This document shows positions 6,000 through 63,475 of a stretch of 64,000 nt of DNA, in pieces. The position numbers were made by a program, and so were the translations under genes. Where the stretch lies: the NCBI GenBank assembly GCA_903813345.2, contig CAIIXF020000007.1:38422671-38486670 (forward strand), in the 5' to 3' direction. Numbering within the stretch: the first letter of the stretch is position 1; each line of letters starts with the position of its first letter. This stretch comes from Owenia fusiformis. Taxonomy: Eukaryota > Annelida > Polychaeta > Sabellida > Oweniidae. The notes beneath the pieces are model-generated. The model was not told where the DNA came from. It did not search any database and was given only the letters and a program-made list of their open reading frames with translations.

Positions 6000-6090
6000 T
6001 CTTTTCACGTTACTCAACTCCATATTCAAATATCATAACAAGTAGTCTTTCCATGTTACTCAACTCCATGTGCAAATATCATTACTAATC
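6000..6090. repeat. Duplicated end of the RNF41 coding sequence
   Basis: Two head-to-tail copies, offset by about 43 bp, carry GTTACTCAACTCCAT on the plus strand, which is the last codons and stop of RNF41 (minus strand HGVE-stop). The copy nearer the gene is used; the other lies in the 3' UTR. Confidence 0.75.
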
Positions 6091-6159
6091 CTGGTGAAAC
6101 CTGGAGTTCAGGGGGAATGTGTGGATTTTCACACATCATCACAACCACTGCCTGCTTTC
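6056..6159 (-). CDS. RNF41: RNF41 exon 6 (last coding exon)
   Basis: The acceptor follows TTTCTTTTCCAG. The exon encodes KQAVVVMMCENPHIPPELQ, then SPGLVMIFAHGVE and a TAA stop at 6058-6056. This is the conserved end of Nrdp1, which in vertebrates closes with FAHGVEEI; here it is two residues shorter. Confidence 0.93.
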
Positions 6160-9100
6160 CTGGAAAAGAAATCCAATATTAAGTTCAATGCAAGCTATTG
6201 TAACCATTCAGTCATTGACACATCAGAGACACAATGATGAATGACACTTTGATTGCTAAATGACACATCTCCCAATGACCCATCAAATAAATTGTTCAAT
6301 TCATGTCTAAGCGACACATTTCCATATGGCACAACAGTCAAAGCCAAACTCCTCAATGTCACATGAGTAAGTTATGATTCAATGTCAATTTAGACACACA
6401 AATGACATATCTTTAGAGTAAAAAGAAGACTGCCATTTGTTGTTTCATATCCCCAAGACAATAACCCTGATCTTGCTTCAAGGCCTTGTAGCCCCTGTGT
6501 CTGGGTATTGCAATGCCATACCATAGCAAAAAACTCTTGTTTGATGAAATTTTTTCAAAATGCACTTTCAGTCCAATATACACACTTATATTATTAGAAT
6601 TTCTTGATTCAGTGTCGCCACAGAATTTGGGATTTCAAATTTTTTTGCACAGAATTTCGCGGAAAACTTCAGTTTTCCTGTCAACCATCTCATCCATATT
6701 TGTCACTCACTTTGACACACTTATACGGTCATTTGTAATCAGAAACGGGTGGTTTGAGGATTTCATCAGATTTCTGCACAGTATTTCCATTTTTCTCATG
6801 CAGAAAACTACTAAGTGTGAATATTTGTAAGTTTTTCATGTGAAAAATTGAACAATTTGCAGAAGAAACTAGAAAAACAGCAACTCCACGGAGTAGCAAA
6901 TCCCACTGAACAGCCACCTTGAAAATTTCTTCTCAAGCAGAGCTCCTTTATCTATAGGCATCAGTTTATAAAATTTGAAGTAAATCCGTCCAATGGTATT
7001 TGAGTTATCAAAGATTACCTTTTTTATGAAAAATGGCAGCCATTTTGAAATTCAGCTGACCCCTTTGAAATTTCTTCTGAAGCAGATCTCCTATTTCCCT
7101 AAACATCAGGATATAAAATTGGAACCAAATCCATTCACTGGTATTTTAGTTATCAATGATTATGTTTTTTTAACGAAAAATGGCGGCCATTTTGAAATTT
7201 AGCTGCCATCTTGAACATTCCTTCTCGAACAGAGCTCCTATGTCCCTAGGCATCAGCATGTAAAATTTGAACCAAATCCATTCAACAGTATTTGAGTTAT
7301 CAAAGATAACATTTTTTACAAAAAATGGCCGCCATTTTGAAATATGGTTGCCATCTTGAAAATGTCTTCTTGAGCAAGGTTCCTTTGTACCCAGGCAACA
7401 GCATATAAAATTTGATCCAAATCTATTCAATGGTATTTGAGTTATCAAAGATAACGTTTTTTTACGAAAAATGGCCGCCATTTTTAAATATGGCGGCCAT
7501 CTTGAAAATGTCTTCTTCAGCAGGGCTCCTTTGTACCCGGACAACAGCATATAAAATTTGAACCAAATCCATCCACTAGTATTTGAGAAATCAAAGATTA
7601 TATTTTTTCCGAAAAATGGCCGCCATTTTGAATTTAGCAGCCATATTAAAAATTCCTTCTCGAGCAGAGGTCCTACACCCATAAGGCATAAGCCTACAAA
7701 ATTTGAATGAAATCCGTTAACCGGTATTTGAGTTATTGCCCGGACACACGAACGGACGGACGAACGGACGGACGGACGAACGGACGGACGAACGGACGGC
7801 TTTTCTATATCCCCCTCGAACTTCGTTCGGTGGGATAACAATAAACTAGCTCCAGTCCTGTTACTTTTTGAACACCCTGTAGTACATTGATACCAGTGGT
7901 GGATAACAAATGAGAACTTGATATGTGCCCATTGATAACTGACACATATATAGGTGACACTCATTTGTGACTTTAATTTAATTGAAACCGACACACAATG
8001 TTTTGACACATTTATACTTTCGCATTTATGACGGACACAATTATATTTGACACATTTACATGTGACACACTGACAAACAATTATATGTGATACACCTGAC
8101 AGTAAACATGTATTGTAATTGTGTATGTTTACTAACATATGCAATAAATGATAATATAATATAGTTTAGTTTAGTGTATTTATTTATTTAATAAATATTA
8201 TATATATACATGAAATATAAGTGAACAGATACCTGGAATCCTTTTTGCCACATAGTTTTCGTACTGCCTCCTGTGATGCTGTCTTGTCTCCAACGTACTA
8301 AGTCCTGGTGGCCACCTCCGCTCGTGTGCATTTTCCATCAACTCATTGACTATATGGGCGGGGCAATTACTGTCTATGAGAGCCCTCTTTATGACTGCTT
8401 GGAGAACTTGGTCGGGTGTTGAGATCATTCCGCCCCATCTAGTCACTCTGGCCACCTGCAGAGTCTGTGCCCACCTACGTGCATAATATTTCGCATTTTA
8501 AAGGTAAATTAGAGAGGAAGACAGTGAAAAAGCATGGAATAAACTAAAGAAGCATATTACATCATTCCGTCCCATCTAGTCACCCTGGCCACCTGCAGAG
8601 TCTGTGCCCACCTACGTGTATAACATTTCACATTTTAAAGGTAAGTTAGAGAGGAAGACAGTGGAAAAGCATGGAATAAACTAAAGAAGCATATATTACA
8701 TCATTCCGCCCCATCTAGTCACCCTGGCCACCTGCAGAGTCTGTGCCCACCTACGTGCATAACATTTCGCATTTTAAAGGTAAGTTAGAGAGGAAGACAG
8801 TGGAAAAGCATGGAATAAACTAAAGAAGCATATATTACATCATTCCGCCCCATCTAGTCACCCTGGCCACCTGCATAGTCTGTGACCACCTATGTGCATA
8901 ACATTTCGCATTTTAAAGGTAAGTTAGAGAGGAAGAAAGTTGAAAAAGCATGGAATAAACTAAACAAGCATATATTACATCATTCCGCCCCATCTAGTCA
9001 CTCTGGCCACCTGCAGAGTCTGTGCCCACCTACGTGCATAATATTTCGCATTTTAAAGGTAAATAAGAGAGGAAGACAGTTGTAAAAGCATGGAATAAAC

Positions 9101-12100
9101 TAAACAAGAATATATTACAATCCGCCCCATCTAGTCACCCTGGCCACCTGCAGAGTCTGTGGCCACCTATGTGCATAATATTTAGCATTTTAAAGGTAAA
9201 TTAGAGAGGAAGATAGTGGAATAAGCATGGAATAAACTAAACAAGAATATACTAGATCATTCCGCCCCATCTAGTCACCCTGGCCACCTGCAGAGTCTGT
9301 GGCCACCTATGTGCATAACATTTCGCATTTTAAAGGTAAATAAGAGAGGAAGACAGTGGAAAAAGCATGGAATAAACTAAAGAAGCATATATTACATCAT
9401 TCAGCCTCATCTAGTCACCCTGGCCACCTGCAGAGTCTGTGCCCACCTACATGCATAATATTTCGCATTTCAAAGGTAAGTTAGAAAGGAAGACAGTGTA
9501 AAAAGCATGGAATAAACTAAACAAGCATATATTAGACCATTCCGCCTCATCTAGTCACTCTGGCCACTTGCAGAGTCTGAGCCCACCTACGTGCATAATA
9601 TTTCGCATTTTAAAGGTATGAGTCTGGGTATCGACTTAGAAAATATTGACAATTGTAATGTCTGAAAAACCAACTCAATCACACATATTATTAAACTTCA
9701 ATATCTTATCCTTCTTCTGAGATTACAAAAATATCAATTGTATCACAATCGATGAAGAATATTGGCATCAAAGACAGTGCATATCACTTTGTCAGAATTG
9801 AAAAAAAAATCAATGGCAAATATTAATTGAATTATTTATGCAAAAAGTTTGAAACATATCTTCCAAAACATTGGTTACTTTCTTTGTATAGACATTGAAT
9901 GGTATTTCTTGATAAGTGAATTGGTGTTTATCTGGGTAATCAAGGGATTATAGTCACTCAAAGTTACTGAGCATCCAGTTTTGAGATTTCAATTGTGTTG
10001 GTGAAGTTACACATATTTCAGTCAAATTCATGCTGAGCACAACATTTTGGTTTCAATTTTATAATCTCGATACATGAGCCTGGTGATGAAGAGTCAGAAT
10101 CAGTCAAAAAACCTAAACCGGAAAACTGTGCTCATTGTGAAAACTAAAAGTGAAGCAACTTTTTTTCTGGTATTTCTTACATCAAATGGCAACCATTTTG
10201 TTTTTCCCCTTTCAAATTCAACTGGCGGGAAATTCAAAATTTTGAAAAAAAATTAAATCCTTAAATATATTTCAAAAATATGATTTTCTTTTTAATTCTT
10301 CATGGGTCTTTAGTTATTTCTTCTTTGTATGTCATACATGTTCCCATTGGTGTTTTTTCTATGATAATGACTATTTTCTTTTTGTTAAGATACTTATTCT
10401 GACTCTCAGCAGGGGGTTAATTATGCATCAAAACTCGTGAAAAAGTAAATATACTTATCAAATATAACTAGGACAGTAATAAAAACCATATTTCACATAC
10501 ATTTGACTGAGGGACCAAAAGGGCATATACCCGGACACATCCTTAGAAAAGAAGACAGTGGAAAAAGCATGGAATAAACTAAACAAGCATATATTAGACC
10601 ATTCCGCCTCATCTTGTCACTCTGGCCACCTGCAGAGTCTGTGCCCACCTATGTGCATAATATTTCGCATTTTAAAGGTAAATTAGAGAGGAATAAAGTT
10701 GAAAGAGCATGGAATGAACTAAACAAGTATATACTAAATCATTCTGCCTCATCTCGTGACCTTCACTTCCTGTGCCCACCTACTGAAACAGCAAGAAAAT
10801 CTTACGCATTGAATGATATCTAATTTCCCGGGGAAAATTGCCGGTCCAGAATATATTTTAGACCGGTCCATATGGATCACCACTATGACGTCACACATTT
10901 CTCAGGTCGATATAGTAAAATGAATGCCTTCTAAACTAGCACTAAAACCCCTAGAACTGGCCTGGCAAGGTGGTAATAATAGTAGTTATTGGTCATGTTT
11001 TTTCATTCGAAACTAGACAACAGCAACATCAAAGCATAGCAAATCCCATGGAACAGCCATGGCTGGCATTTTTACAAACAAAGTGTATAGCAAAAATGGC
11101 AGCCATTTTTCAAAATGACCACCTTCTACCACAAGTGTTATAAGACAGTGTGTGCGTACGTATGGACGGATGGAGGCATTCCCTATATCCCTCCGAATTT
11201 CGTTCAATTGGATAAGGTTGAAAAACGGAATCAGTAAGAAATGAACTAGACAAGAATATAGAGACAAAACAAAATCCATATGTGTGTCTTACAGCTAAAT
11301 TCAGTGAAAGTCAATATAAGGATGAGGTAGTTGACGGAATCTTGGCGCGTCAATTTGAGTACTTTTCTCCGATTCAGAAAAATGAAAATATTTCAACACT
11401 AAAAACTGATTGTTCCCCTTTGTTCTCTGATTTTCTTACCTCAAGACTTCATTATTTTCCAGTTCAGTCTGCAGCTCTCGTAAGCGTGGGTTCGTCATTC
11501 TCAGATGTCGCATATATTCCTAAAGAAAATTTATTTTTTTATTTATTTTTTATTTTTATTTTATTTCATGATAATATAACAATGGAATGTACAAAGCATG
11601 TGCACTCGACACCCTTAGTAATTGGGCGTATCAGTGCATATATCAAAAATTATTGCAGAGCAATTCAATACATTAACAATAATTTATCTAATTGATGTTT
11701 TCTTATCTATTATCCAAAGTTGTGGAAAAACAAGTTTTGTTTCCCCTCATCAAATAGCTTACCATAATGTTGATTGTTTTTCACTTGAATTTTGAAATAC
11801 ATCATTCTTAGTTAATGAAATCATCTTTTACTCATTCCCCTGACAAAATTGACTCTGCTCTTCCACAACTGTGACAATTAAACATTCCAAATTGGAATTG
11901 TTCTCAAAATAAAACAAAGCGATATATTATACAGTGTTCTCCACAGGATTTTTTCACATGTGGGTGCAAAATTCTCATTTTCACAACCAAAATTGATCAA
12001 AATTTGCCAATTTTTCATGATTTTTCTCATTATCAAGTGGGTGCAAATGGATTATCAGGTTGGTGCAAGCCTGTTTTGAAAATATCTGGTGGGTGCTGCG

Positions 12101-15100
12101 CCCACTTGCTTGAATGCTTGGGAGATTACTCATATGTAATTTTAGTTATTGTCCTACAATGCTAAAATGAGAAAAAATCATACTTATGTTCAAATATATA
12201 GTTTTATAAATTCTCAATAAAAGCTGAACCCATTGCCTTCCCCAACAAAACCAAAATCTTTGGCAGATCATATCATACTCTTAAACGTTTAATTTTTGTA
12301 CATTTCTTTTGTTTCTGCCATTTAAAAGTCATGTTATATGTATACAGGATATAGGCATGCCAGGGAAATATGAGCACCAAAACAAAATTTTACAGAAATT
12401 GTATCAATTCTGTCACTTTTCAACTGTTAAAAATGTTTTCAAATATAGTACTATTGTCACCTGGACTAAGCTCCACCTATTTATAACTTGCCTATTTTCA
12501 AATGCTTGCTTAAATGTAAAACAAAATTTTACAGGAATAATATCGAAATTTTTCAACAGTACAGAGTCCAAATATATAGTTAGGCTATACATGTACAGTG
12601 TTCTCCACAGGATTTTTGCTCAAGTGGGTGCAAAATTCTCCTTTTCACAATTCAGACAAAAATTTGTCAAAATATGCCAATTTTTCTTGATTTTTCTCAT
12701 TTTAAAGTGGGTGCAAATGGATTTTCAGGTGGATGCAAGCCTATTTTTTAAATCTGCTGCGCCCACTTGTTTTAATGTAGGGGAAATCACTGAGCTATAT
12801 CACCTATTTGAATTTGCCATTTTAATATCCAATAATTTCAAATTTGCCTCACCTACAGTATATTTGCCTCAGAGGCTGACCCTAGACTTAGTGAGGCAAT
12901 CTTTGTCCCTTGTGAATAAAATGCTTACCTTTAACAGCATTATTTCACTCTTTTGTTCATTAATAAGAAGTTTCTGTTGAGCCAGTTCTGTTTGTAGTTC
13001 AGACATCTTTATGGCCTGTTGCTGAACAACAACTCTAAGCTCCCGTACACAGTTGTGGTCCTTTAAAATATACAATATACAATGCATATCTACAATACAC
13101 AATGCATTAGATATTGATTCAGGATTCCATTTTTCCAAACCTCAAAAAGAATTCATAAATTTGCAAGTCAATCATTCATTTTGTACTTTCTCTGTTGATC
13201 TGAGAAAAAATAAACAACTTTGTATGATACTGAAATCCCAGAATTAACAGAAATTCTTCAATTTACCAAAAATGACGTATTCCAAGAAATCAGAGATCGA
13301 GAATGATATGAGCAGATTCATTCTCATTGTTTCATTGTATTTGTACCTTAACTTCATCTTTTGGAATGACAAGCCCACACCCAGAATCACAATCGACTGG
13401 TTTCTTCGGGTTATGTTCACATTCTGCTAAGTGAGCACTTAGTGCATCTAGCTTGACTATTGCTGTGCATCCAAATGTTGCGTTATCACAGTTTATTTGC
13501 AGTCGGGATAAGAGATTCCGTAATATCCTCGGAACTGGTTTCAGATCATTAGCTGTAAAGGCACTTCTGTCCACTGGACATGTTGGCTGTCTTTGAAGCC
13601 ATTCTGTTATACAGGCTGTACAGAAGGCATGTTCACATGAGGGGGCCTGGAATTACATTATATATGAGCCACCAATATGATGATCATCCTCCAATCACAG
13701 GGCTTCAAAATCCAGAATATCTTCTTTCTTTTTACCCCCTGCGATAAGCAGTTAGCATTTCCCCGATTAAGAACTCGCAATTTGATTCGCTGTCGCAACA
13801 CTGCGACAGTAATCATGTATATGTCATCGGTGCATAATTAGATCACGTGATTCAGTTTAATCGGGCGCTTCCAAATAGCAGGGGGGAGGAAAGAAGGAGG
13901 TACGGATTCTGGACACCTGCTTAGGAGGATGTATGATAATGGACAGAGAGACATATTGACAGACAAGTAAGTGATTACAATAGTCTGTTAAAAAGTTCAT
14001 GTTTTATGTACATATCCGAATTTGGTGATACATATTATCAAAAATAAAATAAATAAATATTGTTGATGTCATAAATATCATATACCACTGTTTCACATAA
14101 ACTGAACAATTTATCGATATATTTATGATATCCAATGATGATCATGAAGACTGAAACAGCTGATCATTTCAAATACATGAAACACTTGAATAGTACATAC
14201 CTGTTGTTGCTCCTCCAGGAACCCACTACAAATAGTACATACCTGTTGAGGCTCCTCGAGGACCCCACTACAAATAGAACATACCTGTTGAGGCTCCTCC
14301 AGGACCCCACTACAAATAGTACATACCTGTTGAGGCTCCTCCAGGACCCCACTACAAATAGTACATACCTGTTGTTGCTCCTAAAGGAACCCACTACAAA
14401 TAGTACATACCTGTTGAGGCTCCTCCAGGACCCCACTACAAATAGTACATACCCGTTGAGGCTCCTCCAGGACCCCACTACAAATAGTACATACCTGTTG
14501 AGGCTCCTCCAGGACCCCACTACAAATAGTACATACCTGTTGAGGCTCCTCCAGGACCCCACTACAAATAGTACATACCTGTTGAGGCTCCTCCAGGACC
14601 CCACTACAAATAGTACATACCTGTTGAGGCTCCTCCAGGACCCCACTACAAATAGTACATACCTGTTGAGGCTCCTCCAGGACCCCACTACAAATAGTAC
14701 ATACCTGTTGTTGCTCCTAAAGGAACCCACTACAAATAGTACATACCTGTTGAGGCTCCTCAAGGACCCCACTACAAATAGTACATACCTGTTGAGGCTC
14801 CTCCAGGACCCCACTACAAATAGTACATACCCGTTGAGGCTCCTCCAGGACCCCACTACAAATAGTACATACCCGTTGAGGCTCCTCCAGGACCCCACTA
14901 CAAATAGTACATACCCGTTGAGGCTCCTCCAGGACCCCACTACAAATAGTACATACCCGTTGAGGCTCCTCCAGGACCCCACTACAAATAGTACATACCT
15001 GTTGAGGCTCCTCCAGGACCCCACTACAAATAGTACATACCTGTTGAGGCTCCTCCAGGATCCCACTACAAATAGTACATACCTGTTGAGGCTCCTCCAG

Positions 15101-16407
15101 GACCCCACTACAAATAGTACATACCTGTTGAGGCTCCTCCAGGACCCCACTACAAATAGTACATACCTGTTGAGGCTCCTCCAGGACCCCACTACAAATA
15201 GTACATACCTGTTCAGGCTCCTCCAGGATCCCACTACAAATAGTACATACCTGTTGAGGCTCCTCCAGGACCCCACTACAAATAGTACATACCTGTTGAG
15301 GCTCCTCCAGGACCCCACTACAAATAGTACATACCTGTTGAGGCTCCTCCAGGACCCCACTACAAATAGTACATACCTGTTGAGGCTCCTCCAGGACCCC
15401 ACTACAAATAGTACATACCTGTTGAGGCTCCTCCAGGACCCCACTACAAATAGTACATACCTGTTGAGGCTCCTCCAGGACCCCACAACAAATAGTACAT
15501 ACCTGTTGAGGCTCCTCCAGGACCCCACTACAAATAGTACATACCTGTTGTTGCTCCTCCAGGACCCCACTACAAATAGTACATACCTGTTGAGGCTCCT
15601 CCAGGAACCCACTACAAATAGTACATACCTGTTGAGGCTCCTCCAGGACCCCACTACAAATAGTACATACCTGTTGTTGCTCCTAAAGGAACCCACTACA
15701 AATAGTACATACCTGTTGAGGCTCCTCCAGGACCCCACTACAAATAGTACATACCTGTTGAGGCTCCTCCAGGACCCCACTACAAATAGTACATACCTGT
15801 TGAGGCTCCTCCAGGACCCCACTACAAATAGTACATACCCGTTGAGGCTCCTCCAGGACCCCACTACAAATAGTACATACCTGTTGAGGCTCCTCCAGGA
15901 TCCCACTACAAATAGTACATACCCGTTGAGGCTCCTCCAGGACCCCACTACAAATAGTACATACTCGTTGAGGCCCCTCCAGGACCCACTACAAATAGTA
16001 CATACCTGTTGAGGCTCCTCAAGGACCCCACTACAAATAGTACATACCCGTTGAGGCTCCTCCAGGACCCCACTACAAATAGTACATACCCGTTGAGGCT
16101 CCTCCAGGACCCCACTACAAAAAGTACATACCTGTTGAGGCTCCTCCAGGACCCAACTACAAATAGTACATACCTGTTGAGGCTCCTAAAGGAACCCACT
16201 ACAAATAGTACATACCTGTTGAGGCTCCTCCAGGACCACACTACAAATAGTACATACCTGTTGAGGCTCCTCCAGGACCCCACTACAAATAGTACATACC
16301 TGTTGAGGCTCCTCGAGGACCCCACTACAAATAGGACACAGCAACTCCTCATCTACTTCCCCTTGGAATCTAACCAAATCATAGCCCATTTCACTTTATT
16401 AGATTCC
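6056..16407 (-). CDS. RNF41: RNF41 / Nrdp1 E3 ubiquitin ligase, complete gene (six coding exons)
   Basis: Joining exons 16389-16300, 13646-13347, 13060-12929, 11519-11440, 8474-8233 and 6159-6056 gives 315 codons with matching phases, against 317 residues in human RNF41. Domains in order: RING at residues 18-56 (Cys18, Cys21, Cys34, His36, Cys39, Cys42, Cys53, with Asp56 as the last ligand, as known in Nrdp1); a SIAH/TRAF-like zinc finger (Cys83, Cys90, His102, Cys106); a coiled coil at about 131-200; and the C-terminal substrate-binding domain with VARVTRWGGM and ENYVAKRIPG. By family knowledge, Nrdp1 ubiquitinates ErbB3, BRUCE and others and is stabilised by USP8. The gene is remarkable for tandem arrays on its exon 1 donor, its exon 5 acceptor, its exon 1 acceptor and its 3' end. 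There is no sign of a broken frame in the exons. Confidence 0.95.
6195..6410. repeat. Degenerate TGACACAT-rich stretch in RNF41 intron 5
   Basis: The words GACACATC and AATGACACAT recur irregularly. A similar GACACA-rich stretch lies at 7870-8110. The two may belong to one decayed dispersed repeat. Confidence 0.35.
6905..7735. repeat. Tandem repeat of about 150 bp with AAAATGGCNGCCATTTTGAA
   Basis: About six degenerate units each contain a short palindrome around GGCCGCCATTTTGAAAT, then CATCTTGAAAAT, CTTCTCGAGCAG, and TATAAAATTTGAACCAAATC. The array lies in RNF41 intron 5. It is closed on the right by a simple repeat and the segment CCCCTCGAACTTCGTTCGG. Related fragments lie at 11020-11220 and 3280-3520. 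Confidence 0.8.
7741..7800. repeat. Simple repeat (GGACGGAC/GAACGGAC)n
   Basis: A run of ACGGACGGACGAACGG words, marking the right side of the AAAATGGCNGCC array. The minus-strand reading gives a spurious SVRPSVRPSVR peptide. Confidence 0.9.
8233..8474 (-). CDS. RNF41: RNF41 exon 5 (C-terminal substrate-binding domain)
   Basis: The acceptor is TTATGCACGTAG at 8475 and the exon begins GTGGGCACAG. With the two bases left by exon 4 it reads RWAQTLQVARVTRWGGM and ends VAKRIPG at the donor GTATCT (8232). It is 242 nt long and in phase on both sides. The first about 45 bases plus the acceptor are repeated upstream many times (8475-9617). Confidence 0.93.
8475..9617 (-). repeat. Array of exon 5 acceptor copies in RNF41 intron 4
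   Basis: About eight head-to-tail units of about 139 bp follow (in plus-strand direction) the true start of exon 5. Read on the minus strand, each unit has a pyrimidine-rich tract, CTAAC, GCACGTAG and the first about 45 bases of exon 5 (encoding RWAQTLQVARVTRWGGM), then leaves the exon at AATGATGTAATATATG. Translation through a copy meets TAA right after the GGMM codons. Two more partial copies lie at 10546-10770, beyond a 0.93 kb interruption. Confidence 0.92.
9618..10545. mobile_element. Possible insertion splitting the exon 5 acceptor array
   Basis: The array stops at 9617 and resumes at about 10546 with GAAGACAGTGGAAAAAGCAT. The intervening 0.93 kb has no similarity to the array. Near its ends are imperfect inverted words, GTCTGGGTAT (9622) and ATACCCGGAC (10527). 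No coding region is seen. A clear target-site duplication is lacking, so the transposon reading is tentative. Confidence 0.35.
10546..10770 (-). repeat. Detached copies of the RNF41 exon 5 acceptor repeat
   Basis: One nearly full unit (about 10546-10700) and one degenerate unit (to about 10770) of the same 139-bp family as 8475-9617. They are separated from it by the segment at 9618-10545. Confidence 0.85.
11440..11519 (-). CDS. RNF41: RNF41 exon 4
   Basis: The exon lies between TTTTCTTTAG and the donor GTAAGA. It is 80 nt and encodes EYMRHLRMTNPRLRELQTEL then ENNEVL, plus two bases. It matches the end of the Nrdp1 coiled coil (human AYMRAIRSVNPNL). No tandem copies are seen at this exon. 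Confidence 0.92.
11934..12125. repeat. Dispersed repeat (copy 1) with GTGGGTGCAAA
   Basis: Begins ACAGTGTTCTCCACAGGATT and ends near GGTGCTGCGCCCACTTG. A second copy lies at 12595-12785. Both are in RNF41 intron 3 and are non-coding. They are probably a short interspersed element or MITE. Confidence 0.75.
12595..12785. repeat. Dispersed repeat (copy 2) with GTGGGTGCAAA
   Basis: Same orientation as 11934-12125, beginning ACAGTGTTCTCCACAGGATT and ending CTGCTGCGCCCACTTG, with several substitutions and small deletions. Confidence 0.75.
12929..13060 (-). CDS. RNF41: RNF41 exon 3 (coiled coil)
   Basis: Exactly 44 codons between a TTTTAAAG acceptor and the donor GTAAGC. Starts DHNCVRELRVVVQQQ and continues as a heptad-like Leu/Gln-rich helix to EIMLLK. 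Human Nrdp1 has NHNCIKHLRSVVQQQ at the same place. Confidence 0.94.
13347..13646 (-). CDS. RNF41: RNF41 exon 2 (rest of RING and zinc finger)
   Basis: Exactly 100 codons, phase 0 at both ends. The acceptor is AATTCCAG and the donor is AAG|GTACAA. It encodes APSCEHAFCTACITEW and PTCPVD, completing the RING begun in exon 1. A second zinc finger with INCDNATFGC and SAHLAECEHNP follows. Confidence 0.95.
14190..16335 (-). repeat. 42-bp minisatellite built from the RNF41 exon 1 5' splice site
   Basis: About 50 tandem copies of a 42-bp unit. Read on the minus strand, a unit is the last coding bases of RNF41 exon 1 (CTGGAGGAGCCTCAACAG), the splice donor GTATGTAC, and TATTTGTAGTGGGGTC leading back into the next copy. 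The copy at 16335-16300 is the real exon end (CPICSGVLEEPQQ). Because 42 is divisible by three, the gene frame stays open as VCTICSGVLEEPQQ per copy until a variant copy with TTTAG at about 16188 introduces a stop. Several variants recur, such as CTCCTAAAGGAA at about 14371, 14713 and 15676, and CGGGTATG donors. The long open frames in the other two registers are by-products. Confidence 0.95.
16300..16407 (-). CDS. RNF41: RNF41 exon 1 (start codon and first half of RING)
   Basis: The acceptor TTTTGTTTTCAG precedes 18 untranslated bases and an ATG at 16389. The exon encodes MGYDLVRFQGEVDEELLCPI then CSGVLEEPQQ, matching the human start MGYDVTRFQG. The donor is CAG|GTATGT at 16299. Because the exon is spliced to upstream sequence, there must be a 5' untranslated exon. 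Both ends of this exon are copied in neighbouring repeats. Confidence 0.94.
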
Positions 16408-16485
16408 CTGAAAACAAAAGCAGTTTAAATGTACAGTCAGGTAAAACCAGTTTAATGGGACAAATGACTGAAATAGCACTACTAG

Positions 16486-16545
16486 ATCATAGCCCATTTC
16501 ACTTCATTAAATTCTCTAATTCTCTGAAAAACAAAAGCAGAATAT
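16486..16545 (-). repeat. Second copy of the RNF41 exon 1 acceptor and start codon
   Basis: On the minus strand this has TTTTGTTTTTCAG followed by an ATG at 16497 and the codons for MGYDLV, after which it diverges. It lies 108 bp upstream of the true ATG. A reading from its ATG ends in TAA before the true start, so it would act as a short upstream open frame if included in the mRNA. Confidence 0.8.
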
Positions 16546-17749
16546 TAAATGTATTATCTATGCTAGATCAAATCTCATCTCATCTGAAAACAAGCAGTCC
16601 AGCATTAGAGCAAAAAAACTGAAAATGATATGCACTCTGCCAAAATTGGGAAATATCATATTTGACCAACAACATTTAGAATGTGGATTTGGCAAAATAA
16701 TCCAGGGATATCATTGACAAAAGCAGTTTATTATAGATTATATTTACTCAAGTCACAAATCAAAGATATCTGTAAGAATTGTAATTGTATTTAAATTAAA
16801 GAGTGCAATGTCACAAGTGAGATGTTGCATTATTTTGTCTGCGATAAGGGTCAAAGGATGCTATATAATTAAAAACATTTATAATTGTTGAACTTTATTT
16901 AAACATTAGTGTGAAACCAAAACTGCCATCTAAAGGTTAGACTTCAAAGTGGCCGATTGGGTAAATTAATTTGCATATTTGTTACTTCAACTAGCTTTAT
17001 TTGCATTTGACAACATGCTGTGTTACTTTTTATTGCATTTAATTGTACCTTACTACTTAATTGAACTGTTATAATGTTTATTTTTGGGAAGTGAAGCTTC
17101 CTAGAATTGATAATTTTGTGCACAAAATTTCCTGTTATTTCCCACAGGAGGGACATGATCATCAATAGACTGAATTCTCAGAATATTCAGTCTATTGGAT
17201 ATAGACTAATCTAAAGGTGGCAGCTCTAAGTGAAACAATTCTCTCAAAATAAAAATGAATAACAATCACTTTTGAGTTTTTGAGCACATGAACTGAGGGA
17301 GAACTGAACTGTATATAAGACTATGTACATATAATTCCACAGATTATAACGCAAGAGCTTAAGCTGAATTGTCTATGTCAATAATCTGCAAAAGGCTTAT
17401 TATAAAGCATCTACATCAATAATCTGCAAAAGGCCAACAAGCCCATTTAAAGCAGATTATTATAAACAAATGAATGCATAAGTAGCTAATAGTGTATGCG
17501 TCCCAAGGTCAGAACTCAGAGATGGTCTTGGAAGAAGGTCACTTGAGTATTGTGTTCATTCACGGGATTTGTAAGAAAGGTAGATCGTTTGACAAGAGTT
17601 TGGGTTTGCCACAAATTCTAGAGGAGCAGCACTTTATGCAATGCAATCTCTTTTCAGTGTAGAATTACTTCAATTTTGATTCTATAGTACTAATTATTCT
17701 TGAATATCACTGCACAGAACTAGTCGATGTCCAGGGTTTGTTCACTAGA

Positions 17750-20891: not shown

Positions 20892-23800
20892 GTGAGTACA
20901 AAATCTTACATATTATAATGGTCAATATAATATATGTAAACTTGCAGATTGTATATATTATCCTTTTTTCAGAAGCCATACGATGTCTCTAAAATACGTT
21001 TTTACTGTTATCGCCAGTTTCAAATAGAAATGTGTTCTGATAGAGCGATCTTTCCAATACAAACACACACTCATTAAGTTAAAATAAGTAACTATTCACG
21101 TATGCCTTCTGTAAACTTGAGGCTCAGCTGGAAAGTAACATTTTGGTAAAAAATTGCTATACCAGCACATGTTATTTTCTGGTACAAAATTAAGTATGAA
21201 GGCACTTGTGTATTTCCTTGCTTTTTTCAGGAAAGTATTATTACACTGTCTACTTTTAGTAAACCTGGAAACGGGTTGAACACATTGAACTCCTACCAGA
21301 TATTCTAAAAGAAGACAATGTCATGATACTTTCCTGAAAAAAGCAAGGAAATTGACACATGCCTTCATACTTTATTTTGTACCAGAAAATAACATGTGCA
21401 GGTATAGCAATTTTTACACCGATTATTTTCCAGCTGTGCCTTAAGTTTAAAAAAAGAAAAAACACTGTCCAAAAAACTAGTAATGGGTATCTGTTTTAAC
21501 AAGCTATTTCTTACAACCCCCTGGCCTGGGCTACTACAATGGTACCCCTCTTCATCAAACTAGCCTATCGCTAATTTACATAGAAACTAAAGGTGAGAGA
21601 ATCGCAGAGTGTAGGACAGAACATATATGTCTCATTTATTGTTGTGTTATTGCATATGTTATGTGAGTGTGCTTTGGTTTTTCCCAATCCCAGGACGCTG
21701 CAATAATGGAGGAAGCAAATGCAGAAACGATGTGTCTCATTTAAGTGATGTTATATTTTTTCAATCCCAGGACTTTGTCATGGTGAAGGAAGCAACGAGA
21801 CTCTGATTGCAGAAATAATATGTCTCATTTAAGTGATGTTATATTTTTTCAATCCCAGGACTTTGCCATGATGAAGGAAGCAACGAGACTTTGATTGCAG
21901 CCGAGGCGAGGTTGATGAAGTATCTATTTGAAGACATGAATTATGATAAATACGCCAGACCAGTCCGCAGGGCAAACGACACTGTCAAGATGAAATTTGG
22001 ATTGAATCTGATCCAAATTGTTGACTTGGTAAGATTTGCTTTGATATTTAAGTAGATAAACTGTACTTATATATTGCTCTACATGTTATGGGCTCGCCAA
22101 AGTTTTAAAGAAAATATCAACCCAGACATTATTTTCTCAGTTTTTATTTTGAATGATATTAGACGATAGCCCCCAACTTACATTGTAAATTAATACTTGT
22201 TTACAATTACAAATAGGCATATTTAACACTAATTTCACCTTAAAAGATATACGTGGATGCATCAAAAAACTGAACTTCAATTTTGAATAGCATTTTACCC
22301 AAGAGTAAACAAAATCAAACAGAAGAAGGTTATACATTCAATTCAACGGGTTTTCACCAACATCTATCTTTTTCCCAAATGTCATAGTATGAACGTTCTT
22401 AAACTCCTTATTTGGGCATTTTACTCCCCGTTATCACACGCTATACGATCAGCTTATGGTATACAAAAACCGGGACAAAACACAATGCACGCACAGCGAG
22501 TGATTTACCTGGTTATGCATTTTATTTCAGTTTTAACATGATTATATTTGCTTAAACTGTGTGAAAATCGTTTAGTATGGTAAACCAAGCAAGGGGTAAT
22601 ATATCATTAAATCGCATTTATGTATGGTTGCACATTCAAGTACTATATGTTCGCTTGCACATATTTGTCGAACTCTGACAATTTAAGGGGTCCCCAAGAG
22701 GGGGCAGTGTCACTTGTAAAATTAAAAATTTGTCACTTAGTCATATTTAAAATGTTCTTGCCATATTTTGTCAGATTCATTCCTTTCTGCATCCTTAAAT
22801 TAATTGTTAAAACCATTTTTATATACCTACACGTAAGTGCTTTCTTTTATATTATAATTATATGTAGTCTAGATGTCCTTTTTAACATTTCTGTTAAACC
22901 GCAACATATACCCACTAGGGTGTCTAGCGGCTTGTTTTTATAGTGTATATTATATAACAATTATGAAATAAATAAATTGAATTGAATTGAATTTTAGTAA
23001 GTCGATCAAAGCATCTAATGTAACAAATGGTCTGTTATGTTCCAGTGTTTGATTTTTATTTAGAATAAGTCATCTTAATGGGGCAACAAGGACTGTAGAG
23101 AGAAAATTTGAATTGTTTTTTCTTTTATTCTGAGTTATCAGGTCAATATTTGGCTTAACATCTTCTTTGATATACCTATTTTCTTAAAATGTATGGATAA
23201 ACTATCAATTTCAGCATTGAGAAGTGTAGATTCAGTTCAAAGCTTCTATAAAGGGAGTCCCACTTATAGATTTGTAAGATTCACCACGTTTCAAGAGGAA
23301 TCCCATCAGCTGAAATAATGTTCATCCAGGGAGTTTCTTTGAAGATAATAAAAATATATGTTAGTTTTGATGAAATATCCAAACTTAAATCTATTTTGAC
23401 ACTGGTCGATGATCGTTGAATGGCCACCTGCACTAATTGTTGCACCTTTAACTTGCATCCAATTACATTCAGAACGAATTGTTTAATTTGTCACTTTCAA
23501 ATCACTTGTCAGTCAGATAAATGAGCAAAATTGTCACTTGCAAGGATTGATTTGTCACATTTGTTCGTCACATTGTAAGTCACATTTTTAGAGGTTTGGT
23601 CGCCTTGTCACATAACCCTTCGGGAGCCCCAACTTAATGGCATCTCATATTGTCAATTCATTAAAATTGTGAATTGAAATGAAATACAAACGCAAACTAG
23701 ATGAATTAAGGTGGGCAATAAAGAAACTAAACCAATAAACTACTTACGAGCTCGCTAGAATACCCCAAAATTAAAACAATCTACAACTATTGTTGACGTT

Positions 23801-26800: not shown

Positions 26801-29800
26801 AAATCTATCGCAAAAACTACCGCATTTTTTCCAAATTTACCGAAAAGTACCGCATTTTTGGCAAATCTTCCGCAAAATTACCGGTTTTTCCAAAAGTTAC
26901 CGTAAAAACTACCGCAATTTTCAAAATCTGCCGTAAAACTACCGCATTTTTGGCAAATCTTCCGCAAAAGTACCGGTTTTTTCAAAAAATTACCGTAAAA
27001 ACTACCGCAATTTTCAAAATCTACCTTAAAACTACCGCGTTTTTTCCGAATCTTCCGCAAAACTACCGCTTTTTCAAAAAACTACCGCATTTTTTCAAAA
27101 TCTACCGTAAAACTACCGCATTTTTTCAAAATCTTTCGCAAAACTACCGGTTTTTCAAAAAACTACCGTAAAAACTACTGCATTTTTTAAAATCTACCGT
27201 AAAACTACCGCATTTTTTCTAAATCTTCCGCAAAACTACCGCTTTTTTCAAATTTCTACCGTAAAATTACATTTTTTTCAAAAATCTACCCCAAACCTCT
27301 GAAACTACAGTATTTTTTTAAATCTACCGCAAAAACTACCCTTTATTTTATAAATCTACCGCAAAAACTACCATTTTTTAAAATATCTACCGTAAAAACT
27401 ACCGTTTTTTCTAAAATCTACCGTAAAAACTACCGCAATTTTGTTGAAAAATACCGCAAAATCTACCGTATTTTGAAAAAATGTACCGCAAAAATACAGC
27501 AATTTAAAAAAAATCTACCGCAAAATTTTGGTCTTAGGTTGGCAGGTATGAGTATGATAGATTGAGCGTGGTGAGGATAACGCATTTTGCGAGAAAAATG
27601 TAAATAGGCGAGGTTTTGTGCCAATTGAGGTGATATTTTACTACCTTTGAATAACATTTTCATCCTTTAAAAAACTTCTGTCAAAGTTTGGCAGGGAACT
27701 GCCTCGTGCCTGGTTATACCCAGTTGCCGGGTGGATGGTTCATTATCTGAAGGTGATGTGTTTTCATTTGCAGCCATCAGAGTACAATAACGCAGAAGTA
27801 TCATCCTTGTACAAAGTGAATGGAGAATGGGAAGTTACGTCATGGGACTCTAAGAAAAACGTGGTATACTATGCCTGTTGTCCCGAACCATACCCGGATG
27901 TCACCTTCACACTTGGCCTTAAGGTAGGATATAACGCAACCTTCTCAATCGGCAAAATAACCTTACCTCCGATGGTATAAGTAATGGTTAATATTGTGTA
28001 TATCAGTATGTGACACAGAGCAATCTATCTGTTGATATAAATTATGTGTCTGCATATTTGGAGCATCAAAAAGTGTACATTGTGAACATCTGGAATGATC
28101 CCGAGCACGCCGTGGGTACAAGACGAGCCAAAACGATAACCGAAACAGATGTCACCCAATATGGGTTTAATATCATCTAATGACTATTGATTAACATGTC
28201 TTTTGGTCACTTTTTCTCACTTTGTAGATTTTATAAACTCCATGGTTTGACTAATGTTATAAATATTTACAATTTATTGAATAAACGATCTTATATTTTC
28301 AGAGAGTGTCAATTTACCACAAATATATGTTCTTGTTCCCTGTCATCATGCTGTGTATATTGACCGTATTCCTCTTTGTGCTGCCACCTGAATCTGGAGA
28401 GAAAGTAAACCTAGGTAGGTCACCGTTCTATCTAGAGGGCTCCCCAAGAGGGGGCAATGAGGTCGCTTAAATGTCACTTTTACATTTTCAAAATTTTCAC
28501 TTTGTCACATTTTAAATTTACTTGTCATATTTTGTCAGATTCATTCCTTTAGCCAGTCAAAGTATTTAATGCACTAAATAGTATTTTATGTTCCATTGTT
28601 TGATTACTGGTAAGACTAAGTCATCTTAACTTGCATTAATTTACATTCACAACGAATTGTCTATTTTTGTCACTCTCAAAACACTTGTCAGTCCGATAAA
28701 TGTACAAAATTGTCTCTTGCAAGCATTTATTTGCCACATTTGTTCGTTTTTAAGTACCCGAAAGTCCCATTTAGTCACATGTTTAGAGGCCAGGTCGCCT
28801 TATCACATACCCATTGGGGAGCCCCATCTAGTGAATCTAGAAAGGTACTCATTCTAGAACGATATTGTGAGTAAATTTGCAAACGCACTCGTAGTTCGTT
28901 TTGGTATTATGTTCACCAATGACTATACAACTTCAAACCATTATTGTCAAGACATTAGAAAAAGCCAAATGTAATTTCATCTTGTGTTGCAGGTATTGGG
29001 ATTGTTCTGGCTTATGTCTTTATGCTGCTCATGTTGGAAAACTACCTACCAACTGAACTGGTTCAAGTTCCTATGATAGGTACGGTATGAAGAATTAGTT
29101 TGTCGCCTTCCCTTTGCTATGCGTTCATGAATCGATTGTGAATTTTTGCAATTACTTAGAACAAATTGAAATTGATTTTGAAATATTTGTTATAATTGGT
29201 ATTTTGACATTTTGCTTTCTTACTTTGCTTTTGCCTTTTTTTAATGTATGATTTCAAAGTTTTTCAAAAATATTGACAGTATTTTTTGCCCAGTCTGTAT
29301 ATCTGAATTGTTTCCAGGAGCTTACTTTTGTTTCAACCTCGTCATTGTGATACTGTCAATCATTATCTCAATCTTTGTGCTGAACATGTGTACCACATTG
29401 TATTTCTGAATTGTTTCCAGGCGCATACTATTGTTTCAACCTCGTCATGGTGATTCTGTCCATCATCATCTCCATGTTTGTGCTTAACATGTGTATTCGC
29501 GGGCCTAGAAGAGGAAGCCCACCAAATTGGCTCAAATCGGTATGTGGGCATTTACGATAATTGATATTTTCAAATATAGTCGAATTCTGTTATTCTACCA
29601 AACCATGCGCCATGTGTGTCAAAACAACGACGACATTTAATGTTAGCTATTTTAATGTCAACAGAACTGGCTATCATGATCATGTGATATATACTGAAAA
29701 TATTGCTTATAATTCTTAAAAACGGCTTTAAAGTGTGCGCCCGACCTGGCTACGTATATCACAGAGTTTATACTGGCGGATTAGACTAGTTCATTTTTTA

Positions 29801-44800: not shown

Positions 44801-47800
44801 CCAGCTTGGTTTCAGAATGATGAAAATCTTGCTGGTGAATTACTTTTAGACTGTCTTGATGCACATAATTTTATACAAATAGTTGACAAACCAACACGGA
44901 TAACTAGCACTTCAAAAACTTGCATCGATCATATCTTTACAAATTCACCAAACTCTATTGATTCTTGGTCAATCGATGCTCCTATTGGAAGATCTGATCA
45001 TGGTACCCTTTTTACAACTTTAAATCTCAACTTTACAAAGAATCCTCCATTTAAAAGAACTCTGTATCAATATGACAAAACAAATATAGCAAATTTAAAT
45101 AATGAAATTAGACAAACTGACTGGGATAGTATCTTGACAAGTTCAAATGATTTGGATAAATGCACTTCTGATTTCATAGAGAAACTCAAATGTATATCAT
45201 GAGAAAATCCCAAATCACACTAAAACAATAAAATCAAATGATCAACCATGGTATAATGAGCATTTAAAGGTTGAAATGAATAAAAAACGACAGTTATATA
45301 AACGTAATGAAAAAAACCCATGTCCTTTAAATTTTGAACTCTACAGAAACCAGGCCCTTAAAGTTTCAAATCTTATATCCTCAGCTAAAATTCAACATGA
45401 AAAAAATGCCATACAAAAAGTTGAATCCTTAAATAAGAATGATAAAAACTTTTGGAAATTGGTAACCAAATTAATAGGGAGAAATAACACTTCAAGTAGT
45501 ATTCCAGCTCTTTATGATACAAATGGAAAAACCTTAAATACAAACACTGACAAGGCAAATGGCTTTCTTAATTTTTTTGTGAATAAATATGACTACAATA
45601 TCCCCGATGATTACAAACCCACCTTTCCAATGCGAACAAATTCCCTTCTTGTTTCGATTAGAACAGATGTATCCGAAGTTATGAAATTGATCCTAGGTTT
45701 AGACACATCCAAGGCTTGTGGCCCTGATCTCATTACTAATAAAATGCTCCATTTATCCGCTCCTTCAATCTCTTATCCTTTGACTAAATTATTTAACATG
45801 TTATTACAGCAAAGCGTATTTCCAAAATCTTGGAAGATTGGTAGCATTTGCCCAATCCACAAGAAAAATAACAAGTCAGACCTGTCAAATTATAGACCTA
45901 TAACTCTTTTGGACTGTATATCAAAACTTTTTGAAAGAATAATTGCAAACAGAATAAAACAACATCTCATTTCAAATGACCTGTTATTCAAATTTCAATC
46001 TGGATTTTTGCCGGGTCACAGTACCCAATCCCAACTTGTTGCCATTGAACATCTTATCCAATCAAATCTTGATCAAGGTAAGGGAGTTAAAGCTCTTTTT
46101 CTTGATATTGCCTCCGCCTTTGACTGCGTACCTCACAATCTTCTACTACTTAAATCAAAATCATATGGTCTGCAGGGACAAGTTCTAAATCTCCTTAAAT
46201 CCTATCTTTACGAAAGAAGAGTCAGAGTGAACATTTCAGGATCCTCATCATCTTTATCACAAACACATGCTATCAAAAGTGGAGTGCCACAAGGATCAAT
46301 ACTAGGTCCCCTTCTCTTCTTACTATATATAAACGACCTACCCGATAATATGAATACTGATTGCTTTATATATGCAGATGATACGTCTATATACTTCCCG
46401 TTTAGTACTAAAAATCCTTCAGAAATTGATAACAAAGTAACCCAAGCAATAGAAAGAATTGAATCATGGTCTATTAAATGGAAACTCAACTTTAAACCTG
46501 AAAAAAGTGTCGAAATAATTTTTCATAATTCCAGAATTAAACTTGGCCAAGTGAACAATTCCTTTATGAATAATGCTTTAATAAAAAGGGAAACATCGCA
46601 TAAACATTTAGGCTATACCTTTGATGAGCACATGTCTAACAAACAACATATAATTGCCATAAGAAACAAAGTAAACAAGCTCCTGAATCCTCTCAGATCA
46701 CTGCAAAAGAAACTAAATTCCAATGTCCTCGAAACTATTTTCATGTCTTTCATTCGACCACACTTTGAATATGGCGCAATACTCTACGATTCCTCTACTC
46801 AAAGTGTCCTTAACATATTAAATAAATTATTCTATCAAGCTGCTCTTATATGCAGTGGATGTTTACATGGTAGTAGTTCAATTAAGGTAAAGAATACACT
46901 CACATGGCCTGATCTAGAAACAAGGCGGTCAATAAAATAAATAAATTCATGTTTAGAGTTAAAAATAATCTCACTCCAAGCTATGTGAAAGATATCTTTG
47001 AACCTCTGAGGATTCAAAATCCCCGAGAACTCAGATCAAATCCTGATTTCAAAATACCTGCCAAAAGCTCAACCAAATTTAGAAACTCTTCTGTCCTCAA
47101 TGCTATCTCCCACTGGAATAAGCTACCAAAGTATATTCGAGAAAGCACAACAATTACCAGCTTCAATAACTTACAAAAAAATAAAATCCCTAAGCCCTCC
47201 TTTTTACCAACTACTAAATCAAAGTTAAAAAGAAATCAAGAAATAATTCTCAATAGATTCAGAGTTGACTTACTCACTAAAGCTCAGCTATATGGCCATA
47301 ATTTTACTTATATTGAAACACCAAACTGCGCTTGTGGTGTGCCTGAAACTCCAAAACATTTATTCTTTTATTGTCCAAATAAAGCACAAAATAGGAACAC
47401 TTTTCTTGCACTTGTAGAGACTTACAAGCCTTTAGCTATAAGGAACAAAAGCCAATTTATAAATTTTCTGAAACATGGCAGTGAAGATTTATCGCTGGCA
47501 CAAAATAATGAACTTTTTGCTCTTGTTGCCAATTTTTTACTGGAGAACTCTTAACATAATCATAATTCTCTATGGGACCCTCCAAGCAAGTATTAACTAT
47601 GCCTACTATTCCCTCACTGAGACTATGACACATGACCCCAGCCTGTCCTATTTCCCATTTCTTATCCAAATTGCTGCTATTCTTCCATATTACATGCATT
47701 TACATTTGTAATTAAATTTATGTATTTTCTAGCTTAGCCTATAATGCTTTATAAGCGATTGGCAAGCCATTCTTGTAAAACATGATTATGATGAAATAAA

Positions 47801-54500: not shown

Positions 54501-54551
54501 AATTGAGTATTGGTAGGAAACAATTTTTTGTTCCCAAATGGAATACTTTAT

Positions 54552-57793: not shown

Positions 57794-57828
57794 AAAGAAA
57801 AAAAGAAAAATCATAATTATGACGTGCA

Positions 57829-58722: not shown

Positions 58723-58945
58723 GTAAATACCTTCGATGTTCTGACATTTTGTTACAACGTTCAACAAAAGTTCTATTAAAAGAGAGCAGCAAGATCTGAA
58801 TTATTGCAGCCCCGTGTTCTTCCTCCAACGTCTGATGCTGCGGGATACCACAGTTATAGAGCGTACCTTCAGATCCAGGAGTGGAAGGGAAATAAACTGC
58901 CTCCATTATAATTGGGCTGGGAAATAAGCAGCGAAGCTTTTGTAC

Positions 58946-61049: not shown

Positions 61050-61515
61050 CCCATACTCAAATTTGGAGGGGGGTACCTAGAATGTGACATTTCATTGTCC
61101 ACTGCATATATTTTTCTATATTTTTGATATGTTTTTCAACTGGTATCAATATACAATAAAGGCCTAATTTAAAAACTGTTGCAATTTTTGGGACGTTAAA
61201 CTTCCATTTGCCTAGCCTATTTGGTTCTAAAGTGTATTTGTATTTGATGCGTGTTCTAAATATATTTGTCAACCGTCTTTGTTCGTGTGTGTACATGGAC
61301 TTCAATATGCGATATTTTACCAAACACTGAATAACAAAAACCGCATATACAAGTGCATTTACCGCATATAAAGGTACATAAATCAAATATAAATGTGTAA
61401 AAACAAACAAATTTAGTACGTGTTTCGAATTATTTTAATAGAGTGGAATATCGAATGGTTGTAATCAAATACAAAAGTGTGAAAATCGAATAAAGATGCA
61501 GAAAAAATTCCATAC
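61050..61515 (-). repeat. Dispersed element copy, inverse of 26380 and 54240 copies
   Basis: On the minus strand it runs GAATTTTTTCTGCATCTTTA to CGAACAAAGACGGTTGACA, then CCCAAAAATTGCAACAGTTT to ATGACATTTCATTGTC... in reverse order. It is the longest of the three copies. The open frame inside is not a recognised protein. Confidence 0.8.
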
Positions 61516-61729
61516 TCACATGGTTTTATCATCATCTATCTCCTTCCTCGTAGAACCAATGACTTGACACCTCTTAACTCTCATTCCCCAGTCCCTGGGA
61601 GCCACAATACACTTTTAATTAGTAACATAACATTATTAGATACGGACATATTATAGATCAAATATGATGATTTATAAGCTGCTTAATAATACGTCCTAGA
61701 ACTTTTATGTAGACAATTCATTTTCAGCA

Positions 61730-61855
61730 ATGTCGGAAACAAAGGAGGCTAATGTGAAGCTTGTAACAATCACAAGGTTCAAGTTTATCCCAAGCGTATC
61801 ACCTTTTTCCATAGCATTGGAAACATTTATGAGGGTGGCAAATATACAATATGAA
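61730..61855 (+). CDS. FAXC: FAXC-like exon 1 (coding)
   Basis: 42 codons from the ATG to donor GAA|GTAAGT, phase 0. Confidence 0.8.
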
Positions 61856-62827
61856 GTAAGTGTTGATTTTCAATTGGATTCTTTTAATACAAGTCCTTCA
61901 TATTAATGGATGTTAAACACAAGCATGTCACAGCTTTACTTGGAATATATCATATACTGAAATGGTCGATTTGTATACTCACTTGCGGAATATGTCATAT
62001 ACCACAGGTGAGTATGCCATTTTCTGCAAGTGAAACGTGTTAGCCTCATGGTGTCCACTGCGACGTCGCACGATGGTCGCAATGACTGCGACGTCGCAGT
62101 GATATCGACAGCTTGTTAATCGACCGTTCTGTAACATATTCTCATTGATTAGTGAGGAAGCATATACACTCACTTTGTACAATGTATTCATCTACCTGGG
62201 GAGTATGACATAATATATTTGTTCCATGTACGTTTTTAAAAATCCATCGAATATGACATTTAATTCCGTTCACTGTTCACATTTTTATTTAGGTTGAATT
62301 CGTAAAAGAATACACTGTCAACAAGGAAACTGGACAACTGCCGTTCGTCATTGTTAACGGAGTACAAGTGAATGACTCGAGAAAAATTATGAGGTTAGGG
62401 TTAAGCCTAACATATGCTTAATAAAATGTATCCGCTCTGTGAATTCCAGCTTGCCTACTATGGTATTAAAGGAATTGACAAAATTTTAATAACTTCCTCC
62501 AGTTGAGCATAACACAACATCACTACATGTTTGAAATAAAAGAAAAGGTTTGTTTCAGTAAAAAAAACAAAAAAACATCCCTATTCCACAGTACTTCGGT
62601 ATGATTATTATTGCATAATGCCATCATCTTGTTGGTCTATTAAGGTATATGCCGAAAAAGTGGCTAAATGAATAGACTGGTTTAAGAATATGTATTACCA
62701 CTTGATATTGGTAATTTTTCAGCCATCTCAGTGAGCTATTTGATGTTGACCTTGACAGTGGATTGAGCCCAGTAGAGAAGGTCATCTCCCATGCATTTCA
62801 GAGAATGATGAATGAATTCACAAGGTG
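61730..62827 (+). CDS. FAXC: FAXC-like (failed axon connections) gene, first three coding exons
   Basis: Exons 61730-61855, 62293-62393 and 62723-62827 join in phase to about 110 residues: MSETKEANVKLVTITRFK, then PSVSPFSIALETFMRVANIQ, TGQLPFVIVNGVQVNDSRKI, SHLSELFDVDLDSGLSPVEK and VISHAFQRMMNEFTRW. The S-P-F-x-x-x-L-E-T-F/Y-M/L-R motif, the G-x-L-P-F/W strand and the S-x-A-x-x-x-M helix match the thioredoxin-like N-terminus of the FAXC/metaxin family. Fly Fax is linked to axon development. The ATG at 61730 lies two bases after an acceptor (TTTTCAG), so an upstream untranslated exon exists. The helical domain should follow beyond. A segment at 63860-63950 (after TTTCTCCAG) could be a next exon but its frame closes quickly, so I do not call it. 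Confidence 0.8.
62056..62101. repeat. Perfect hairpin CACTGCGACGTCGCA
   Basis: CACTGCGACGTCGCA and TGCGACGTCGCAGTG are separated by 16 bases. Each arm itself holds the palindrome TGCGACGTCGCA. It lies in FAXC-like intron 1. Confidence 0.9.
62293..62393 (+). CDS. FAXC: FAXC-like exon 2
   Basis: Acceptor TTTTTATTTAG, then VEFVKEYTVNKETGQLPFVI and VNGVQVNDSRKIM plus two bases. Donor AG|GTTAGG. Confidence 0.82.
62723..62827 (+). CDS. FAXC: FAXC-like exon 3
   Basis: Acceptor GTAATTTTTCAG. Encodes SHLSELFDVDLDSGLSPVEK then VISHAFQRMMNEFTR plus TG. Donor TG|GTAAGT at 62828. Its last about 55 bases plus the donor are repeated downstream. Confidence 0.83.
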
Positions 62828-63475
62828 GTAAGTTGTCAGATATATGCCAAGTGGAGAAGGTCATCTCCCATGCATTTCAGAGAATGATGAATGAATTCAC
62901 GAGGTGGTAAGTTGTAAGATATATGCCAAGTAGAGAAGGTCATCTCCCATGCATTTCAGAGAATGATGAATGAATTCACGAGGTGGTAAGTTGTAAGATA
63001 TATGCCAAGTAGAGAAGGTCATTTCCCATGCATTTCAGAGAATGATGAATGAATTCACGAGGTGGTAAGTTGTAAGATATATGCCAAGTAGAGAAGGTCA
63101 TCTCCCATGCATTTCAGAGAATGATGAATGAATTCACGAGGTGGTAAGTTGTAAGATATATGCCAAGTAGAGAAGGTCATTTCCCATGCATTTCAGAGAA
63201 TGATGAATGAATTCACGAGGTGGTAAGTTGTAAGATATATGCCAAGTAGAGAAGGTCATCTCCCATGCATTTCAGAGAATGATGAATGAATTCACGAGGT
63301 GGTAAGTTGTAAGATACATGTATATGCCAAGTAGAGAAGGTCATTTCCCATGCATTTCAGAGAATGCTGAATGAATTCACGAGGTGGTAAGTTATTAGAT
63401 ATATGTCCAGTAGAGAAGGTCATCTCACATTCATTTCAGAGAATGATGAATGAATTCACAAGTTGGTAAGTTATA
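62828..63475 (+). repeat. Array of exon 3 donor copies in the FAXC-like gene
   Basis: Eight further copies, mostly 79 bp apart, follow the true exon end. Each has GTAGAGAAGGTCATCTCCCA, GCATTTCAGAGAATGATGAA, TTCACGAGGTG and the donor GTAAGTTGTAAGATATATGC. The last two copies are more diverged. Reading past any donor gives TG-G-TAA, an immediate stop. Confidence 0.93.

Follow-up and report, generated by a model that had tools for sequence, protein, structure and literature searches.

Minisatellites across exon-intron boundaries in the annelid Owenia fusiformis resemble the mirages of amphioxus

Mirages of amphioxus are minisatellites that span splice junctions. They have been described for Adh3, the globin genes BflGb6 and BflGb9, TnC (troponin C) and PGBD5, with units of 10-72, 60, 108 and 150-160 bp and with turnover of the repeats (PMC3087553, PMC3902484). 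Their copy number varies, even somatically, and it has been suggested that new introns may originate from them (PMC3087553, PMC3902484). Both Adh3 data and reverse transcription PCR of the globin genes are said to indicate that splicing still takes the exon-adjacent site in amphioxus (PMC3087553). Here, we describe arrays on splice junctions in a stretch of 64,000 nucleotides of the annelid Owenia fusiformis (contig CAIIXF020000007.1, positions 38,422,671 to 38,486,670 of the forward strand), referred to as the window in the following, where they affect RNF41, a gene resembling nicotinic acetylcholine receptors (nAChR-like) and a third gene. We regard these arrays as probably mirage-type minisatellites, that is, duplications of exon-intron boundaries that are tolerated and occur in moderate excess at junctions.

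The features shared with the amphioxus mirages are tandemly duplicated boundaries at either donor or acceptor, repeated AG/GT and units of about 10-160 bp. The amphioxus cases belong to cephalochordates, whereas the arrays described here occur in an annelid, reach up to 51 copies, turned up at 15 of the 54 loci examined and were counted against a null expectation. Furthermore, splicing and length instability are reported for amphioxus, whereas the O. fusiformis arrays are described here from genome sequence. Tandem or mutually exclusive duplication of whole exons, as in insect Mhc, also places exon sequence in tandem inside one intron, but the units found here consist of an exon end with one splice site and not of a complete exon. 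Intron gain by AG/GT duplication (the Rogers model, cited in PMC3087553; potato RdRp, PMC4974935) likewise multiplies splice-like sites by tandem duplication; it differs in that here existing introns grow at one edge. For earthworm metallothionein genes, PMC12783039 describes intron minisatellites and duplications of the fourth exon that are absent from the transcript. A literature search of limited scope, by title and start of the abstract, returned no clear report of mirage-like arrays outside amphioxus. An initial annotation of the window knew of no earlier description of a process or selection that multiplies splice junctions; the phenomenon is the one documented as the amphioxus mirages (PMC3087553, PMC3902484).

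That annotation had also placed arrays on the splice junctions of three genes, and this is borne out by Tandem Repeats Finder (TRF) and direct reading: five TRF arrays and one diverged pair lie across splice junctions in the window. The most striking one covers the donor of RNF41 exon 1 (14189..16338, minus strand). It had been estimated at about 50 copies of 42 bp and is called by TRF as 42 bp x 51.2; its unit comprises the exon tail and a GTATGT-type donor. The coding part of exon 1 (MGYDLVRFQGEVDEELLCPICSGVLEEPQQ; 16301..16389, minus strand; direct reading and tblastn) carries the true donor at its end. The unit equals 14 codons and keeps the frame, in-frame stops are present in some copies, and read-through of the array would add VCTICSGVLEEPQQ units until ended by a stop in an early copy. 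Among 50 copies, 17 distinct sequences are found, which differ by substitutions and small indels. At the acceptor of RNF41 exon 5 (8424..9618, minus strand; TRF, direct reading and tblastn), the expected nine or so copies of 139 bp correspond to an array of 139-140 bp x 8.6. The two detached copies of this unit are located upstream of the array at 10540..10790 (about 10.55-10.8 kb, minus strand), and the exon 5 body with the USP8_interact domain is found at 8231..8474 (minus strand; tblastn and Pfam). The acceptor in the 5′ untranslated region (UTR) and the ATG region of RNF41 are present in two diverged copies (16370..16545, minus strand), visible by direct reading at about 16375-16540, and TRF makes no call for this pair in the window. 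The stop-codon end of RNF41 is duplicated as well (46 bp x 1.9; 5995..6082, minus strand; TRF, direct reading and tblastn). This is an exon-edge repeat without a splice site, and edge repeats are thus not all at splice sites, which hints that exon ends generally may be affected. Upstream of RNF41, a dispersed repeat occupies window positions 16943-17200, with about 40 further matches of 80-92% identity among the matches listed.

In the nAChR-like gene, the acceptor of exon 2 is covered by an array of 88 bp with the site in three copies (21685..21900, plus strand), and the acceptor of the M3 exon by one of 103 bp x 1.9 with two copies (29296..29495, plus strand), both identified by TRF and direct reading. 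The third gene, which we take to be FAXC-like, carries an array of 79 bp x 8.9 at an exon donor (62767..63472, plus strand; TRF, direct reading and Pfam), matching the nine copies reported for the donor of its third exon; each unit is composed of 61 nt of exon and 18 nt of intron. RNF41 and the nAChR-like gene were identified by tblastn, using query sequences of RNF41 and CHRNA7. In Pfam searches, USP8_interact and Neur_chan_LBD scored over the cut-off, GST_N_4 (in the FAXC-like gene) and Neur_chan_memb below it. On the minus strand at 40.3 kb, a tblastn match that seemed to be an nAChR-like peptide is short and chance-like and was rejected. An intron of the nAChR-like gene contains, by reading only, reverse-transcriptase-like open frames of a non-long-terminal-repeat retrotransposon (43883-47551).

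Within the window, five junction arrays compare with 0.8-1.5 expected by chance (Poisson P 0.001-0.019), in a test for which the number of splice sites was assumed (30, 40 or 50) and the window itself had been picked for the pattern. This test is based on 25 arrays and omits periods below 18 bp, a 1002-bp x 3 repeat and the 5′ UTR pair.

To extend the comparison, we sampled further loci from the genome, which comprises 498 Mb with 12 large contigs; the window itself is located on a large contig. In keeping with an annelid, the genome has three matches above the cut-off to PF16915, a linker family of annelid erythrocruorins. Sample A consists of 35 stretches (182,334 bases) that were picked by exon density, blind to repeats, and then analyzed with TRF; its exon matches belong to the TCP1, myosin head, SNF, kinesin and Neur_chan_LBD families. 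Such exon-dense selection probably works against finding arrays, because arrays lengthen introns. Sample B consists of 19 stretches (67,419 bases) from UCH and G-alpha genes, likewise picked by conserved exons and blind to repeats. Reading the arrays by eye, we found 23 that span junctions, distributed over 15 of the 54 loci. Sample A contributed 18 of them, spread over 12 of its 35 loci. Annotated exon ends account for 15 and unannotated exons for three, the latter being a lower bound given that inspection covered the arrays flagged at exon edges plus five others; two short flagged arrays (L004 2756-2794, 18 bp; L010 5483-5520, 17 bp) fell outside it, as did the majority of the unflagged ones. 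Sample B contributed five arrays in three of 19 loci, two of them at annotated ends; here, arrays with a period of at least 18 were inspected, long ones by their ends, and one undecided array (L049, 53 bp x 4.1) was excluded from the counts. Also excluded were four arrays close to a site that do not cross it (L018, 52 bp; L009, 21 bp; L032, 39 bp; L044, 67 bp).

Two additional arrays came from the match list and were used for anatomy only, being left out of the enrichment tests. The kinesin array L036 appears as 18 matches 159 bp apart, with 14 of 17 copies distinct in sequence. The UCH array L056 appears as 11 matches about 150 bp apart and covers the acceptor of the exon with the catalytic Cys (1351-3029, G000:C9, minus strand; 150 bp x 11.2). 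In L056, whichever acceptor is used, an in-frame protein with extra Cys boxes would result. At L047 (2007-2394), junction arrays with units of 65 and 71 bp lie at a donor and an acceptor end and have a common segment; the two ends appear to be both sides of one UCH-gene intron. A separate region (G000:C9:37986009-37994334, minus strand) matches a single myosin-head exon (profile about 18-84) twelve times at uneven distances, and these matches resemble an alternative-exon cluster of muscle myosin.

These arrays have a common anatomy, are present in many genes, carry intact splice signals in most copies and show no frame bias. For 30 arrays (five from the window, 18 from sample A, five from sample B, L036 and L056), we measured the units, which are 18 to 159 bp long. 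In all 30, the unit crosses the exon-intron boundary, with an exon part of 4-139 nt and an intron part of 1-89 nt. Twelve arrays affect donors and 18 acceptors. In donor units, the exon predominates (mean share 0.67, with a median of 17.5 nt for the intron part; Kolmogorov-Smirnov test against a uniform distribution, P 0.05, n=12), and acceptor units are about half exon (mean share 0.51, median intron part 35.5 nt; same test, P 0.81, n=18); in 16 of the 18 acceptor units the intron part is at least 23 nt, as would be required for a functional tract. Multiples of three are not favoured among the unit lengths (12/10/8 for the three remainders, n=30), as expected if the copies are non-coding. The true site is always the outermost one, as the initial annotation had stated: the true donor comes first and the true acceptor last, because the reading frame can continue only through the copy that adjoins the exon body. 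Likewise, the duplicated segment crosses the exon edge and therefore each unit holds exon and intron sequence. Both properties are forced by tandem duplication and are no evidence for a mechanism, so that the outermost position, although correctly observed, loses its value as a clue.

The frequency of junction arrays was compared with a founding-unit null, in which randomly placed units, not whole arrays, are scored for how often a site gets covered. We hold this to be the right null because array expansion comes after the founding duplication. Sample A shows 15 junction arrays where 4.9-6.1 are expected (P ≤0.0002). At the annotated exon ends of both samples, 17 arrays compare with 7.3-8.4 expected (P 0.0003-0.0025). 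When loci are resampled, the expectation is 7.2-7.9 and the ratio 2.1-2.4, with a locus-bootstrap 95% interval of 1.4-3.3 and a sign-flip P of 0.005-0.009. Run fully automatically on the 146 paired sites in sample A, the test yielded six against 2.4-2.8 expected (P 0.018-0.049). The underlying splice-site caller skipped pairs more than 10 residues apart and considered 84 intron pairs, with four more uncalled; weak signals or poor fit led to the removal of 11 of these 84, leaving 73 paired introns. A wider test used 321 of 340 called edge sites, the unpaired ones being approximate; for sample B, the 102 edges were taken directly from the profile matches. These results indicate that some link of the duplications to exon ends is likely, with a roughly twofold excess that is supported but moderate. 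It could be caused by exon-linked duplication with removal inside exons, by a splicing-linked process or by longer survival at junctions.

Several observations weigh against or limit this interpretation of the arrays. Sample B alone shows no excess under the founding-unit null (2 versus 1.9-2.3 expected). Nor does whole-array shuffling on the automatic sites of sample A (6 sites versus 7.6-9.1), which is how we ran the shuffled-position test proposed in the initial annotation; the duplication linked to splice junctions that it had suggested is partly supported, by the combined excess but not by these two comparisons. The arrays were classified by our own, unblinded reading. In L056, a single frame is open across all 11 copies, which could be coding there. 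When a second RNF41 allele or haplotype was sought, the scored candidates listed included no match to the unique portion of the flank other than the flank itself. The missing excess in sample B and under shuffling, together with the 7-8% of sample A bases that lie in arrays and the common occurrence of arrays away from known exon ends, would agree with ordinary random minisatellites that fall on exon ends by chance and are removed by selection when inside exons, which makes the junction cases conspicuous, a reading that accepts the same anatomy and denies the excess. We consider it rather unlikely in view of the combined founding-unit ratio and its sign-flip P, and also because in sample A the junction arrays are more homogeneous (93% versus 87% identity) and have more copies (6.0 versus 3.5-4.2) than other arrays; they therefore look younger, not older. 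The G+C content of sample A is 0.38 in junction arrays, 0.32-0.34 in other arrays and 0.338 in the non-coding background. This sample thus gives no sign that arrays are generally drawn towards G+C-rich DNA, since the other arrays are no richer than the background.

If the duplication process were itself tied to splice sites or splicing, with nascent RNA or boundary chromatin as conceivable links, the junction excess in the combined samples and the exon-rich donor units would be accounted for. The acceptor units lack such a bias, however, the intron part must suffice for a working site and is skewed by this alone, and the duplicated RNF41 stop codon does not involve splicing signals, which together make such a process unlikely. 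Selection for the extra sites as decoys or redundant splice sites, which regulate or secure splicing, could explain why GT/AG is intact in 193 of 208 extra copies (0.93 versus 0.83 expected from flank identity) and why most copies are as strong as the true site (165 of 208 within 0.5 bits of it or above). But young, homogeneous copies retain the site without selection, the copies are non-independent, and the copy search favours similar motifs. Moreover, no weakness of the true sites in arrays was detected relative to those of the 73 paired introns (P 0.20 and 0.90), there is no frame bias, and sites have been lost in some arrays (L007 donor, 1 of 4 intact; L046, 8 of 15; 28-bp donor array of L005, 11 of 15; 50-bp array of L041, 1 of 2). 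The regulatory decoys suggested by the initial annotation thus left no sign in unit lengths or site strengths, and we regard them as improbable. Long tandem arrays are error-prone in assemblies, but the copies differ from each other, as in RNF41 exon 1 and L036, many unrelated loci are affected, and re-sequencing of amphioxus PGBD5 argued against assembly error (PMC3902484). An artefact would therefore come as a considerable surprise.

Mirage-type minisatellites could have formed in the following way. A short tandem duplication would arise across an exon-intron boundary. A pairing between TGTCCTATT in the exon and TGTACTATT in the intron is conceivable for RNF41. In the FAXC-like unit, the intronic bases that follow GTAAGTT are unlike the intron after the last copy, and this mismatch may reflect filler bases at the duplication junction. 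From these two cases, we infer that microhomology might drive the duplication. Slippage or unequal exchange would presumably add further copies. Frame and splice site would both be retained in the exon-adjacent copy, which would leave the gene intact, and the remaining copies would be tolerated as intronic decoy sites with an exon stub. Splicing presumably still takes the exon-adjacent site. More tentatively, and with the odds against it in our view, a boundary-biased duplication process may act genome-wide, convergent with amphioxus, and multiply junctions at a higher rate than the rest of the intron DNA; the spliceosome would then have to single out the exon-adjacent site dependably from dozens of equal strength.

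Two other repeats were observed in the window. Between 40.2 and 42.8 kb, tandem copies lie about 1002 bp apart and are 95.5% alike over 1500 compared bases; open frames suggest three copies, and the unit exceeds the TRF period limit. At 32514-33432, a 462-bp unit forms two tandem copies with 100% matches, consistent with a very recent duplication or an assembly duplicate.

Taken together, the arrays are a real, recurrent feature of a known kind, now found in another phylum and with moderate enrichment at junctions. Within the literature covered, mirages have so far been an amphioxus feature reported for only a few genes. Because partial exons appear repeatedly in them, they can lead gene predictors astray, and they pose the question of how one splice site is chosen among dozens of near-identical neighbours. 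If mirages are common in an annelid genome, they would represent a more general route of intron growth in animals, and one from which decoy splice sites, pseudoexons and perhaps new introns would naturally arise.

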